Source: Arthrobacter pullicola (GTDB lineage Bacteria; Actinomycetota; Actinomycetes; Actinomycetales; Micrococcaceae). From it: a stretch of 39,989 nucleotides of DNA. Location: NCBI RefSeq assembly GCF_014836875.1, contig NZ_JACSQC010000003.1, forward strand, positions 1 through 39,989. Reading direction: 5' to 3'. The first letter of the stretch is position 1, and each line of letters opens with the position of its first letter. The notes beneath the pieces are model-generated. The model searched no databases, was not told the origin of the DNA, and worked only from the letters and a program-made list of their open reading frames with translations. This document shows positions 6,955 through 25,003 of this stretch, in pieces. Both the position numbers and the translations under genes were made by a program.

Positions 6955-7401
6955 TTACGCGGAGTTCACCATGGAGTGCGCAGCGCGGTCCAGATAATCC
7001 CAAAGCGTCGCCTCGTGCAGGGGAGCAAGTTCCAGCGAGTCGACAGCGGCGCGCATGTGCCTAAGCCACGCATCCCGTGCAGCAGGTGTTACCTGGAACG
7101 GCATGTGCCGCATCCGCAGCCGCGGATGCCCGCGCTGCTCGCCGTAGGTCTTGGGCCCGCCCCAGTACTGTTCCAGGAACATCAGCAGCCGCTCCTTCGC
7201 CGGCCCGAGGTCCTCCTCGGGGTACATGGGCCGCATCAGCGGATCCTCCGCTACGCCCTCGTAGAAGACATCCACCAATTTCACGAAGGTGTCATGGCCG
7301 CCGACCGCCTCGTAGAAGTTGTACTCCGGCTGGGAAAAGCCGGTGCCGGGATTGGCTGACGTCAACGGCAGAGATGCCGGGCGCTGGGGTTGTTCGCTCA
7401 C
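6955..7401 (-). CDS. glbO: Truncated hemoglobin, group II (trHbO)
   Basis: 148 aa with a ~25-residue N-terminal extension ahead of the globin core. Key positions match M. tuberculosis trHbO by spacing: B10 Tyr47, CD1 Tyr60, proximal F8 His99 and G8 Trp112. The block [20 protein letters not shown] is nearly diagnostic. Group II globins bind O2 very tightly and are linked to O2/NO/peroxide chemistry near the membrane. The GTG start overlaps the mscS stop (GTGA, 7398-7401), so the two are co-translated. The spelled-out distal Tyr pair suggests a normal, functional heme pocket. Confidence 0.95.
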
Positions 7402-21545: not shown

Positions 21546-22043
21546 TCACGAGCCCGGGCGGGATTCCTCACGGATGATCTCGGCTATCCGGGTGTAACCC
21601 AGCCGCACCGCGTTCTCCAGGGCCGTCCGCCCCTGGGGATCGCGGATGCCTGGGTCGGCCCCTGCTGCCAGGAGCTGCCGGACAACGTCCTGCTGGCGGG
21701 GACCGCCGTTGTTGAGCAGGATCGCCTCCTGCAGGGCCGTCCAGCCCAGGTTGTTGACGTGGTTCACCGGCACACCGGCGCCTAGCAGGATCCGCACCGT
21801 CTCGGTGTGGCCGTGTTCGCTCGCAGGAATCAGCGCGGTCCCGCCGTAGCGGTTGGTGCTGGCCACGTCAGCTCCCGCCGCGAGAGTCAGCTGCAGGACC
21901 TCGTTGAAGCCTTCCGCCCCGGCATAGAGGAACGCCGAATCCTGCAGCGAATCCTTGGCATTAACATCAGCTCCGGCGGCGATGAGCTCGGAGGTCCGGG
22001 CGGCGTCGTTCGCCTTGGCCGCCCGGATAAGCTCTGCGTCCAA
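21546..22043 (-). CDS. Ankyrin-repeat domain (C-terminal part of a frameshifted lipoprotein gene)
   Basis: 165 codons of open frame encode about five ankyrin repeats of ~33 residues, for example LIRAAKANDAARTSELIAAG, GGTALIPASEHGHTETVRIL and GRTALENAVRLGYTRIAEII. The only start is a TTG with no Shine-Dalgarno, and repeat 1 begins almost at once. This is what one expects for the downstream part of a longer gene. The upstream part (lipoprotein signal and Pro-rich linker) is open in the neighbouring frame. Ankyrin repeats bind proteins; exported bacterial examples sit beside catalases or redox genes. Its stop is seven bases from that of the Rv2466c-like gene. Confidence 0.8.
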   Translation of the reverse strand: MDAELIRAAKANDAARTSELIAAGADVNAKDSLQDSAFLYAGAEGFNEVLQLTLAAGADVASTNRYGGTALIPASEHGHTETVRILLGAGVPVNHVNNLGWTALQEAILLNNGGPRQQDVVRQLLAAGADPGIRDPQGRTALENAVRLGYTRIAEIIREESRPGS

Positions 22044-22342
22044 AACAGCCTGCTGCCCGGGGACAGAACCGGCGCCGGTCCTGGCGCCGGTCCTGTGGTA
22101 GGTCCGGACGGCGCTGGTCCGGTGGGCGCTGGACGAGTTGGTGCAGGCCAGGCCGGGGCCGGCGTTGGTTCGGGTGCTGCGGATGCGCTGCCTTCTGCTT
22201 CCACTTCCTGCGTCCCGGCCGATTCCGGCTGTGATGAGCGCGGTTGCGGTGTGCCCTGGCTGCAGGCCGAAACCGCGATCAGTAACGTGAGCACGGCGCC
22301 GCAGAACAGGAGGAGCGTCCGGGTGTTCCTGTTGAAGGACAT
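21546..22342 (-). pseudogene. Frameshifted lipoprotein with Pro-rich linker and ankyrin repeats (whole locus)
   Basis: Translation should start at ATG 22342, which has AGGAG close upstream and lies seven bases after the stop of the HbpS-like gene. The first 27 residues form a lipoprotein signal with lipobox VSAC (Cys27). A linker rich in PAP/TGP repeats follows. The ankyrin domain is in the -1 frame. Adding one C to the CCCC run (G4 at 22059-22062 on the plus strand) would join linker and ankyrins as ...PVLSPGQQAVLDAELIRAAK without a break. So this is either a true recent frameshift, a phase-variable tract, or a base-calling error. If intact the product would be an exported ~264-aa lipoprotein. 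Confidence 0.72.
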
Positions 22343-22349
22343 TACGCTC

Positions 22350-22979
22350 CTATTTCTCGATGCCGTTCCCGCCGGCGCCGGCGGCAGCCCCGGCGATGGT
22401 TTCGGCTCCGGCTGCCGCGCAGGCTTCATCCAGCATGCCATCCGGGGCACCTCCCACGCCGATGCCGGCAACGGAAACCCCGTCAACTTTCAGCGGCACT
22501 CCGCCGGCCAGGAACAGCGTCCCCGGCAGGTCGGCGATGCCGGGACCGCTGCCGGTCACCCGCTGGGACAGCTCGCTGGTCGGCGCTCCGAAGGCGGCGG
22601 CGGTGTAGGCCTTCTGCTGGGCAGCTTCGATGGTGTGTTCTGCGGCGTTGTCCCCGCGGAGGAGGGCCTGCACCGTGCCGAAACGGTCCACCAGCGCCAC
22701 CGTCACGAAGGGCAGCTTCCCGGCCACGCAGCTGCTCAGCGCTGCCTGGACCGCGGCTGCCGAGGCCTCGGCGGTGATGCGGTTCTGGGCAACCGTCGTC
22801 TCCGGAGCGGGCTGAATATCGACTACGGACACTTCTGCCGCGGCCGGCACCGCGGGTGCGGAGCCCGGGCCGGCGGCAGCGACGGGGGTGTTCACTGTGT
22901 TCGCTGCGGCCGTCAGCGCTCCGGTCAGCAACAACGCCCCGGCGGCGGCGGCGGTTGTGATCTTCGCTGATTTCTTCAC
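22350..22979 (-). CDS. Secreted HbpS/GlcG-like (DUF336) heme-binding-type protein
   Basis: 209 aa from the GTG at 22979, preceded by AGAGGAGA; the longer open frame upstream has no such signal. The N-terminus KKSAKITTAAAAGALLLTG is a Sec signal peptide. Residues about 60-200 form a DUF336 (PF03928) domain: VTVALVDRFGTVQALLRGDNA, AAQQKAYTAAAFGAPTSEL, LFLAGGVPLKVDGVSVAGIG and VGGAPDGMLDEACAAAGAE. Two cysteines (Cys84, Cys187) could form a disulfide outside the cell. In Streptomyces the secreted family member HbpS binds heme and modulates the kinase SenS encoded next to it. Here too a kinase/regulator pair is divergent from it. Heme binding itself is not shown by sequence. Confidence 0.85.
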   Translation of the reverse strand: MKKSAKITTAAAAGALLLTGALTAAANTVNTPVAAAGPGSAPAVPAAAEVSVVDIQPAPETTVAQNRITAEASAAAVQAALSSCVAGKLPFVTVALVDRFGTVQALLRGDNAAEHTIEAAQQKAYTAAAFGAPTSELSQRVTGSGPGIADLPGTLFLAGGVPLKVDGVSVAGIGVGGAPDGMLDEACAAAGAETIAGAAAGAGGNGIEK

Positions 22980-23103
22980 GGGTTCTCCTCTATGGGGTGG
23001 GGCCGGTGCTGGATGCCCGGGTTCTCTTTCCATGGTTCCCGGCGGCTGAGAAGGGGGCATCGGGCCTTCGCCTGCCGATGTCTGCGCCAAAGGGCCAGCC
23101 ATG

Positions 23104-23119
23104 TCAGCCAAAAGGCTGA
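23104..23119. promoter_or_regulatory. Palindrome in the divergent hbpS-like / kinase promoter region
   Basis: TCAGCC-AAAA-GGCTGA has perfect 6-bp arms around a 4-base spacer. It lies midway between the two divergent genes, 125 bp before the HbpS-like start and 65 bp before the kinase start. A TAGGAT hexamer at 23142-23147 may be a -10 element toward the kinase. It is a candidate operator for the adjacent NarL-type regulator; it could also simply be a small RNA hairpin. A second perfect palindrome, GGAGTACTCC, is at 23153-23162. Confidence 0.4.
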
Positions 23120-23183
23120 GGGGGCCTGGAAGCGCGGCGAATAGGATGGAAAGGAGTACTCCATCCACCGGAACCGGAACCCT

Positions 23184-24380
23184 ATGCCTTCGTCTACAAC
23201 CGTCCGGCCGCAGTCCGCTGCTGCCGCTGCCCCCGCCACCGGAACCGGTACGCTCAGCCGGATCGACGCCGTCGTGCATCTGGGGTTTGCCGTGCTGCTG
23301 GTGGCGTCCGCCGTCCGCTATGTGATGCGGCACAGCCCGGCGGACAACGTGGGTGTGCTGGTGCTTGCCGCGGCTGCCTGCGGACTTTATGCCCTGATCG
23401 CGGTGCTGTCGCGGCGGTCCCGGCCGTGGGCCGTCTGGCTGTTTGTCCTGGTGGGACTCTGGGCGCTGCTGGTGGTGGTGGCCCCGAGCTTCGCCTGGGG
23501 TTCCTTCGCGGTGTTCTTTCTGTGCCGAACGGCTTTCACCGGATGGGTCTCCTATGTCACCGGCGGTGCGACGGCGGCAGCAACGGCCGCCGGACTGTTC
23601 CGGCTCAGCGGCGGCAGTGACGTTGCCATGCTCCTGGGTCCGCTGGTGGTGGGGGTTATGCTGACGCTCATCTACGACCGCATTGAGCACGACGCCGCCG
23701 AGCAGCGCCGTTTGCACGCGGCAGTCTCGCAGGCGCAGGAGAGGCTTGCTGCCACCGAACGCCGGGCCGGGATCGTTGAAGAACGGGCACGGGTGTCACG
23801 CGAAATCCACGACACAGTGACGCAGGGCCTGGCGAGCAGCCTGCTGCTGCTGGAAGCCGCCCACCGGTCCTGGCCCGATCCGGCGGCCCGCGGGGAGGTG
23901 CGCAGCGCCAACGTTATGCTGCGCCAGAACCTTGCCGACACCCGCAGCCTGGTCCATGAACTGGCGTCCCCCGGGCTGGAGAGCGCACCGCTTCCGGACG
24001 CCCTGCACCAAGCTGCCTCGCAGTACGTGCCAACGGTCCGGCTGTGTGTCACGGGCGAACCGCGCGAGGTTGGTGCCGAAATCCGGCATGCCCTGCTGCG
24101 GATGGTTCAAAGTGCCGCCGCCAATACGGCGCTGCATGCCTCTGCGGCCAGCGCCACGCTCACCTTGGGTTTCCTGCCCGAAACCGTCACGCTCGATTTC
24201 CATGACGACGGCGCGGGCTTCGATCCGGAGTCGGTCCCGCCTCCGTCCGACGCCGGCGGTTACGGACTGCGGGCAATGCGGCAGCGGGTGGAACAGCTGG
24301 GAGGCGAGTTCTCGCTGGAAAGCAGCCCGGGAGCGGGAACCATCGTCGCCGCTGCCCTTCCCGCCGGGATCACTCGATGA
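23184..24380 (+). CDS. Two-component sensor histidine kinase (HisKA_3 / SenS-like)
   Basis: 398 aa. About five to six membrane helices occupy residues 27-164, with little extracellular loop. A coiled-coil linker (168-200) follows. The dimerisation/phosphoacceptor motif is REIHDTVTQGL with His209. The catalytic domain has G1 DDGAGF (341-346) and G2 GYGLRAM (359-365). The N-box reads MVQSAAANTALHASA: Asn314 is present but the acidic residue usual in QEALxN is Ser310. It overlaps the regulator gene by four bases (ATGA). Architecture and the divergent DUF336 gene resemble Streptomyces SenS, which senses redox/heme state through HbpS. No convincing Shine-Dalgarno is seen before ATG 23184. Confidence 0.88.
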   Translation: MPSSTTVRPQSAAAAAPATGTGTLSRIDAVVHLGFAVLLVASAVRYVMRHSPADNVGVLVLAAAACGLYALIAVLSRRSRPWAVWLFVLVGLWALLVVVAPSFAWGSFAVFFLCRTAFTGWVSYVTGGATAAATAAGLFRLSGGSDVAMLLGPLVVGVMLTLIYDRIEHDAAEQRRLHAAVSQAQERLAATERRAGIVEERARVSREIHDTVTQGLASSLLLLEAAHRSWPDPAARGEVRSANVMLRQNLADTRSLVHELASPGLESAPLPDALHQAASQYVPTVRLCVTGEPREVGAEIRHALLRMVQSAAANTALHASAASATLTLGFLPETVTLDFHDDGAGFDPESVPPPSDAGGYGLRAMRQRVEQLGGEFSLESSPGAGTIVAAALPAGITR

Positions 24381-25003
24381 ACCCGATTACCGTGCTGCTT
24401 GTGGATGATCATCTGGTGGTCCGCAGCGGCCTGACGGCGCTGCTGGCAACGCAGCCTGACCTGGAAGTGGTGGCCGGGGCAGCCTCGGGGGAGGAGGCCC
24501 TTGCCCAAGTGGAAAAGCATTCCCCTGCGGTGGTCATCATGGACCTCGCAATGGGCGCCGGAATGGACGGAATCGAAGCCATCCGGCAACTGCGCCGGCG
24601 CAACAACTCCCAGGCGATTATCGTCTTCACCACGTACGACTCCGATGCCGACATTGTCCGTGCCGTGGATGCCGGAGCCATGGGCTACCTGCTCAAGGAC
24701 GCCTCACCGGAGGAGATCTTTGCGGCCGTGAGGGGTGCAGTGCAGGGCCGCAGCATCATGAGCCCGCCGGTGGCCTCCCGGCTGTTCCAGCAGCTGCGCA
24801 ACCCGGAAGCCGTGCTGACCCCGCGCGAGGCGGAACTGCTGAGCCTGCTCACCGAGGGGCTCAGCAACCGGGACCTGGGCCGACGCCTGTCCATCTCCGA
24901 AGCCACGGTGAAGACGCATCTGGCGCACATTTACGCGAAACTGGGGGTGGAGACCCGGGCAGCAGCGATCTCCACCGCCATCCGCCGGGAGGGCATGCGC
25001 TGA
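24377..25003 (+). CDS. NarL/LuxR-family response regulator (SenR-like)
   Basis: 208 aa. The receiver domain has acidic pocket Asp10/Asp11, phosphoacceptor Asp56 (VVIMDLAMG), Thr85 and Lys107. The C-terminal LuxR-type helix-turn-helix is LTPREAELLSLLTEGLSNRD and SISEATVKTHLAHIYAKLGV. It is translationally coupled to the kinase by a 4-base overlap. It probably controls the divergent secreted-protein genes, and the palindrome at 23104-23119 is a candidate target. It converges with the ribokinase gene, with only 23 bp between stops. Confidence 0.93.
   Translation: MNPITVLLVDDHLVVRSGLTALLATQPDLEVVAGAASGEEALAQVEKHSPAVVIMDLAMGAGMDGIEAIRQLRRRNNSQAIIVFTTYDSDADIVRAVDAGAMGYLLKDASPEEIFAAVRGAVQGRSIMSPPVASRLFQQLRNPEAVLTPREAELLSLLTEGLSNRDLGRRLSISEATVKTHLAHIYAKLGVETRAAAISTAIRREGMR

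Follow-up and report, generated by a model that had tools for sequence, protein, structure and literature searches.

A probably cysteine-switched variant of the HbpS-SenS-SenR system in Arthrobacter and its frequent ankyrin lipoprotein neighbor

Analysis of a 39,989-nucleotide stretch of the Arthrobacter pullicola genome (contig NZ_JACSQC010000003.1; "the window" denotes this whole stretch) revealed, at positions 21546-25003, a conserved cassette that includes a gene for an exported HbpS-like protein (hbpS), divergently oriented genes for a SenS-like sensor kinase and a SenR-like response regulator and, behind hbpS, the parts of an ankyrin lipoprotein gene (ank). We interpret this cassette as a variant of HbpS-SenS-SenR, the studied example of a sensor located outside its kinase, that is probably switched by cysteines and in which the ankyrin lipoprotein is often present as a membrane partner without being essential; we put the probability of this reading at about 50%. 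The components of the cassette are as follows.

22350-22979, minus strand: hbpS-like gene including the stop codon (coding part 22353-22979), GTG start at 22979; signal peptide and DUF336/HbpS domain
23184-24380, plus strand: gene for a SenS-like HisKA_3 sensor kinase; HisKA_3 and HATPase_c domains, membrane domain with short loops
24377-25003, plus strand: gene for a SenR-like NarL/LuxR-type response regulator; Response_reg receiver and GerE domains (Pfam)
22980-23183, no strand: divergent promoter region between the starts of hbpS and the kinase gene
23104-23119, no strand: palindrome TCAGCC-TTTT-GGCTGA, a response-regulator operator predicted from comparative evidence
21887-22342, minus strand: frame encoding a lipoprotein signal peptide (lipobox VSAC) and a proline/alanine-rich linker, which leaves the ankyrin frame near 22050-22070
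21546-22066 (upper limit approximate), minus strand: ankyrin repeats (Pfam Ank_2), in a frame different from that of the signal peptide

The window HbpS protein belongs to PF03928 (Pfam, 1.1e-25), and its best solved relative is Streptomyces reticuli HbpS (PDB 3fpv, E 1e-27); the kinase matches HisKA_3 (5.4e-13) and HATPase_c, and no NCBIfam model scored above the cut-off for any window protein submitted. The starts of hbpS and the kinase gene lie 204 bp apart, and the kinase and regulator genes overlap by 4 bases. Pfam and the coordinates agree with the initial annotation, which had described a HisKA_3 kinase with a coupled NarL-type regulator and, divergent from them, an exported DUF336 protein. 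The same annotation gave the kinase five to six helices and hardly any extracellular loop; the membrane domain and the short loops in its N-terminal part are indeed seen, with four clear cores under a fixed hydropathy rule, the count of six helices being a reading by eye.

The conservation of the cassette was assessed in two sets of genomes. The first consisted of 197 genomes of the family, including that of A. pullicola, searched separately with the kinase, ankyrin and HbpS sequences, with the first 9-18 candidates per genome scored and cut-offs of E<=1e-75 for the kinase and E<=1e-15 for HbpS. The kinase was detected in 17 of these genomes and HbpS in 18, and in all 17 with the kinase, hbpS adjoins the kinase gene by coordinates; ank adjoins hbpS in 14 of the 18 (the G060 copy is truncated), the others being G597, G609, G537 and G476. 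The second set, hereinafter the named loci, comprised the best 80 of 105 confirmed loci and was retrieved via HbpS, so that its kinase counts are conditional on HbpS. The kinase and regulator genes diverge from hbpS in 77 of the 80 (L041, L076 and L114 are cut by contig ends), and ank follows hbpS in 70 of 79, often with a gap of about ten bases. The cassette is real and conserved, and the co-occurrence of DUF336, ankyrin lipoprotein and kinase/regulator pair anticipated in the initial annotation is borne out. For comparison, 394 genomes of the class were searched with S. reticuli HbpS, 34 of which matched; of the matches from other families, the 23 with the best scores (L146-L168, E-values of 3e-43 or lower, 22 of them from one genus) made up the Streptomyces-type set. 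A related kinase is encoded on the opposite strand in all 23, and both kinase and regulator are present in the 19 fuller stretches. Comparison across these sets shows the linkage of a SenS-like system to hbpS.

At its predicted outer loops, the window kinase carries a signature, R45xxxR49H50, A100PSFAW105 and D146. A column comparison of 20 Arthrobacter-type HbpS-linked kinases, 19 Streptomyces-type kinases and 20 paralogs showed that R45, R49, H50, A100, S102, A104 and D146 are conserved in both HbpS-linked groups and not in the paralogs; further discriminating columns, e.g., L68, V90, V97, A155 and T161, lie inside helices. A pattern search found R...RH and APSF[AS]W together in 75 of 82 HbpS-linked kinases from Micrococcaceae, in 19 of 19 Streptomyces-type kinases and in none of 21 paralogs, among which R...RH occurs somewhere in the frame in 5 and the second motif in none. 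The seven misses include two sequences that are one letter off (L036, L096), three with broken or masked N-terminal frames (L043, L070, L106) and two divergent ones (L218, L223). The paralogs are 35-40% identical kinases that are present in the A. pullicola genome and in 19 others of 39 genomes searched (G024 counted); although candidates for SenS orthologs at first, they were rejected as such and are treated here as paralogs because the two loop motifs do not occur together in them and genomes with this kinase type alone gave no match to hbpS. In a tree of the 59 kinases, the window kinase belongs to the HbpS-linked Arthrobacter group (support 100/99), and the Streptomyces-type SenS proteins form a separate group (100/100). 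The kinship with SenS/SenR proposed in the initial annotation is thus upheld by the adjoining hbpS, the shared divergent gene order and the loop signature, whereas the kinase tree leaves the closeness to SenS unsettled.

The HbpS proteins were compared in 84 Arthrobacter-type and 23 Streptomyces-type rows (S. reticuli numbering). The heme threonine T113 (T154 in the window protein), K83 and D143 are retained in all 84 Arthrobacter-type proteins, and E78 and E144 in 83 each, whereas Y77, K108, E81, S26 and H28 are found in none. The Y77 position is occupied by I in all 84, that of K108 by A in 79 and D in 5, that of E81 by K, Q or R in all 84 and, with less certainty of the N-terminal alignment, that of S26 by Q in 84 and that of H28 by R in 83 and W in one; the corresponding counts in the Streptomyces-type rows are 20 for Y77, 22 for K108, 13 for E81, 17 for S26 and 22 for H28. 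According to the available text of the S. reticuli papers, Y77 is the dityrosine site (PMC3754957, PMC3184428), and the K108A variant cannot mediate heme-based activation of SenS (PMC3754957).

A cysteine pair, C84 and C187 (window numbering), occupies the same positions in all 84 Arthrobacter-type proteins, and these are the sole cysteines past residue 60; of the Streptomyces-type proteins, 22 have no cysteine and one has a single cysteine. The pair is also present in the distant HbpS proteins of G476 and G537, though not in L170 and L173, and in 224 of 224 homologs among the matches listed, that is, close relatives from the best 120 of 574 and the best 120 of 1153. C84 aligns with A45 inside the E43XXE46 motif and C187 with Y146 just past D141XXE144, and both motifs are located on the HbpS surface, as described in the accessible part of PMC3754957. 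The passages on cysteine in the HbpS papers, as far as these texts were available, do not have the HbpS cysteines as their subject; an AlphaFold model of HbpS built from a 15-row alignment was too weak to use (mean predicted local distance difference test score 39). The heme-tuning chemistry of Streptomyces, which the initial annotation had carried over to this cassette, is not supported here: five residues are replaced and the cysteine pair is new. Judging from these substitutions, the HbpS input of this branch is probably switched by thiol chemistry of a redox kind. Given that the heme threonine is kept, heme or another tetrapyrrole may still bind.

The cysteines might instead form a plain structural disulfide, while heme or iron would still be sensed through T154 and those charged residues that are retained. 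Structural disulfides are frequent in extracellular proteins, and the near-complete retention of T113, K83, D143, E78 and E144 fits this explanation; the replacement of K108, on which heme-based activation of SenS depends in S. reticuli, speaks against it. We consider it a serious alternative, with a chance of being right that is appreciable if clearly below even.

In the window, the ATG of a lipoprotein signal peptide (MSFNRN...LLIAVSAC) is located at 22342, seven bases past the hbpS stop, and the ankyrin repeats are strong (Ank_2, 7.5e-31). However, a different frame encodes the repeats, which extend from 21546 to about 22060, with the break near 22050-22070, so that of the ankyrin lipoprotein reported in the initial annotation the position, the signal and the repeats stand, whereas the single open frame does not. 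In the closest relative, A. gallicola Sa2CUA1 (L004:2126-2902; also L036), signal and repeats are encoded in one frame. The break, which comes from a single assembly, may be a natural mutation or a sequencing error; a natural mutation is believable because ank has been lost at other loci as well. Under a rule that combined a lipobox, a hydrophobic stretch and positive charge, an in-frame lipoprotein signal was found in 58 of the 70 ank genes compared with 8 of 174 control frames, and in 63 of 70 when five recognized by eye (L050, L059, L078, L101, L114) are included. HbpS itself passes the lipobox rule in 38 of the 224 homologs listed, including those from Rhodococcus and Prescottella, and also in the ank-less genomes G476 and G537; the HbpS proteins P0284 and P0310 look similar to the lipobox forms and are not flagged by the rule. 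The only HbpS flagged in the 80 named loci is in L042 (5001-7026), where hbpS is doubled, the first copy having a lipobox and the second being soluble and followed by ank. Most likely, the ankyrin lipoprotein is a membrane partner that is often present but not required and that would tether HbpS.

It is also conceivable, at somewhat longer odds than for the structural disulfide, that ank is a frequent neighbor devoid of any signaling role and encodes an independent envelope protein under a shared promoter. Related ankyrin lipoproteins apart from hbpS in many genomes of the family, together with the absence or breakage of ank in 16 of 79 loci and its out-of-frame state in the window, are compatible with such a role. 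The close spacing to hbpS argues otherwise, as does a tree of 41 ankyrin proteins, in which the HbpS-linked ones cluster together with support (98/99), G559 falling inside this cluster and the HbpS-linked G536 (L223) outside; this tree included, from L036-L115, only every fourth locus plus L036, was restricted to sequences of at least 140 residues, and its bootstrap had not settled. G559 has kept the regulator and the ankyrin gene, with no hbpS or kinase match. The arrangement in G503 (L206 4293-7026), where genes for a related ankyrin lipoprotein, a HisKA_3 kinase and a NarL-type regulator stand in a row without hbpS, is a further point for an association of the ankyrin protein with signaling; neither loop motif was found in the G503 kinase. 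An ankyrin gene without a signal peptide follows hbpS in three of the 23 Streptomyces-type loci (L155, L159, L161); these belong to a separate branch and were not counted as the same part.

Another unlikely alternative, which we rate slightly lower still, is that the ankyrin lipoprotein is a heme- or iron-handling partner of HbpS rather than a tether. Catalase activity depends on ankyrin proteins in Pseudomonas aeruginosa (AnkB) and Campylobacter jejuni (Cj1386), and Cj1386 binds heme, according to the available parts of PMC7567364, PMC11442138 and PMC9426514; the heme threonine of HbpS would suit such a partner. However, in the portion of the window covered by the 17 sequences scanned with Pfam (two of which are parts of the ankyrin gene) there is no catalase, and none was recognized by eye in the 16 most common flanking families (three of them checked with Pfam). 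In the window, ank is flanked by hbpS on one side and by a gene for an Rv2466c-like protein on the other, with no catalase gene adjoining. Furthermore, Cj1386 is counted as cytoplasmic in the accessible text of PMC11442138, whereas the window ankyrin has a lipoprotein signal. Among the titles and abstract openings returned by the literature search, no paper linking ankyrin with HbpS was found, and the listing for ankyrin lipoproteins in Arthrobacter contained none on the topic.

The divergent promoters of both the Arthrobacter-type and the Streptomyces-type groups contain a palindrome, TCRRCC-N4-GGYYGA. In a set of 77 sequences (76 loci and the window; L062 was excluded for distance), the stretch separating hbpS from the kinase gene contains CTCAGCCTTTTGGCTGATACGG with no more than three mismatches in 68 and no more than six in 76, L042 with its doubled hbpS showing 11; in a control with one shuffle of each promoter, the best match had 8 mismatches. 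Among 20 genomes picked from the 80 loci, the 21-base form occurs with three or fewer mismatches in 19, once in 18 of them and twice in one, and is missing in G041. In the A. pullicola genome, the 17-base form occurs once without a mismatch and in 12 more places at three mismatches (reversed control, 5). The form TCRRCC-GATC-GGYYGA, with at most one mismatch, is present in 18 of 19 Streptomyces-type promoters, the exception being L176, which is closest to S. reticuli; exact copies of the palindrome were found in 14 of the 19 Streptomyces-type genomes, at 21 sites that include 12 at hbpS (none for the reversed control). Seven of the nine exact sites away from hbpS (L254-L262) have a related two-component kinase in the stretch examined; in L254, ATP-binding cassette (ABC) transporter genes flank the palindrome on both sides (Pfam), and similar genes were seen by eye in several others. 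Of 21 loci with paralogous kinases of relatives, 19 have the palindrome upstream with one mismatch or none, 9 of these exactly (reversed, 0 of 21; L022 is weak). In the A. pullicola genome itself, TCAACC-AAAC-GGTTGA lies some 54 bases upstream of where the paralogous kinase starts in the alignment (L219 4321 = L033 1435); cross-regulation with this system is possible. On this comparative evidence, the palindrome is consistent with a site through which regulators of this subfamily control their own genes, and it is a well-supported predicted operator. An RNA hairpin or bidirectional terminator, for which six-base arms able to pair around TTTT might be taken, is very improbable, considering that the arms pair at five or more of six positions in only 54 of the 77 sequences, that the GATC spacer of the Streptomyces-type copies is self-complementary and that related two-component genes in other surroundings also have copies in front of them.

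Several observations weigh against the interpretation of the cassette as a cysteine-switched HbpS-SenS-SenR variant with a membrane-bound ankyrin partner. In the window, the signal and linker frame that begins at 22342 continues to a stop at 21887 and does not encode the ankyrin repeats. Furthermore, ank is absent in 9 of 79 named loci (L044 ends too early to judge), and 7 of the 70 ank genes (L043, L045, L070, L077, L086, L095, L115) have no intact signal-to-repeat frame, so the gene is not essential. In the 197 family genomes, the ankyrin search matched 42 compared with 18 for hbpS, that is, relatives of the ankyrin protein extend beyond hbpS. HbpS is unlipidated in 11 other ank-less loci (nine named loci, G597 and G609), which makes a swap of tether between ank and lipidated HbpS a lead only. 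On the kinase side, G476 carries hbpS without a kinase match, as do, within the stretches examined, the weaker actinobacterial HbpS relatives L170 (= L195), L173, L174 and L175, and in the midpoint-rooted kinase tree, which has no outgroup and no established root, SenS sits with the paralogs (96/90). Among the replaced HbpS residues, E81 varies in the Streptomyces-type rows as well. The palindrome is not private to this regulator because it is also present in front of paralogous systems, and its sequence differs from that of S. reticuli SenR site III, CCGGGCCGCGTCCCGT (Table 3 of PMC4991794).

Under the variant interpretation, exported HbpS would provide the input to a kinase with nearly no sensing domain of its own, presumably by contacting its short outer loops; this step is suggested by the conserved linkage and the loop signature. 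The switch itself would be a thiol one, with the S. reticuli iron and tyrosine residues gone and the cysteine pair placed at or beside two surface D/EXXE motifs. The kinase would then phosphorylate the NarL-type regulator, which would bind the palindrome in the divergent promoter and control the expression of hbpS(-ank) and senSR; ank, which lies close behind hbpS, is probably co-transcribed with it. The ankyrin lipoprotein would most likely hold or present soluble HbpS at the membrane beside the kinase, a task that some relatives may accomplish by lipidating HbpS itself. Because ank is out of frame in the window, a correct sequence would mean that in this strain the system probably operates with no tethered partner or that ank is being lost.

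In a more ambitious model, which we offer tentatively and consider rather less probable, four parts make up a thiol sensor of the envelope. HbpS would be switched by a disulfide and kept at the membrane either by an ankyrin lipoprotein dedicated to it or by a lipid of its own, a kinase without a sensor domain would read it, and the system would regulate its own expression via the palindrome that it has in common with sister systems. If true, this would represent a swap of sensing chemistry inside one conserved signaling module. The module retains the kinase loop signature and the promoter palindrome while most of the known sensing residues are replaced, and the comparison yields exact residues, a predicted operator and a fourth protein as targets for testing in harmless soil bacteria.

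The neighbors of the module in the window are clpX, the Rv2466c-like nitroreductase gene (Pfam scan) and a sugar-kinase gene named rbsK by eye. These genes lie within the examined stretch in only one of the 80 named loci, so conservation of the module does not depend on them; a single operon of ank with the Rv2466c-like gene was rejected because the latter converges on ank and was found next to only 1 of the 80 modules. In the same 80 loci (L036-L115), thiolase-like genes (56), CoA-transferase genes (50 and 36) and IclR-type genes (49) are found near the module, downstream of hbpS (e.g., L073); among the genes scanned beside the window copy, none matched these. Within the 39 genomes mentioned above, 25 of which belong to the genus of the window, hbpS was found in two, including that of A. 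pullicola. Horizontal gain in the genus was considered; however, fragments of ank, kinase and regulator genes lie in G017 between the same neighbors, nitroreductase and rbsK, as a scar of the module. Loss after presence in an ancestor common to G000, G024 and G017 therefore explains at least some of this distribution. No piece of the module was found within 1.5 kb on either side of 22 other rbsK loci of the genus, and a plasmid search with a Rhodococcus HbpS returned one Arthrobacter record. Elsewhere in the A. pullicola genome, a second DUF336 gene is located on contig C15 (L220 4261-4803, minus strand), with no kinase match within the 9 kb examined, and the window encodes a bacterial-like globin at 6958-7401 (minus strand; Pfam Bac_globin, 3.5e-36), about 15 kb from the cassette.

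Among known systems, the cassette resembles HbpS-SenS-SenR of S. reticuli and S. coelicolor in the secreted DUF336 protein, the divergent genes for a HisKA_3 kinase and a NarL-type regulator, and the heme threonine, and it shares the outer-loop signature of the kinase and the promoter palindrome with Streptomyces-type genomes. Unlike those systems, this branch lacks the equivalents of Y77, K108, E81, S26 and H28 and has two invariant cysteines, an ankyrin lipoprotein follows hbpS, and no cpeB was seen among the window genes scanned. The export signal differs as well: the N-terminal signal peptide of the window HbpS, read by eye as (V/M)KKSAKITT, has no twin arginine, and the same applies to the 11 ank-less loci, where no twin-arginine translocation motif was found, although RR occurs in 33 of the 84 HbpS rows when the upstream frame is included in the count. 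AnkB and Cj1386 are likewise ankyrin-repeat proteins in a peroxide- or heme-linked gene set, but they are linked to catalases rather than to HbpS, and the available parts of the respective papers mention no lipidation. The Rhodococcus and Prescottella HbpS proteins are DUF336 proteins with the same cysteine pair in which, unlike in the window, HbpS itself bears the lipobox. Clusters of hbpS-senS-senR in actinobacteria, including A. aurescens, are already in print (PMC4991794, in whose available text ankyrin does not occur), and Paenarthrobacter aurescens TC1 (L065), a member of the same branch, has all four genes, for the kinase, the regulator, HbpS and the ankyrin lipoprotein. Thus, the three-gene cluster in Arthrobacter is known, and the cysteine pair, the shared loop signature, the palindrome and the lipoprotein form of HbpS go beyond the initial annotation.

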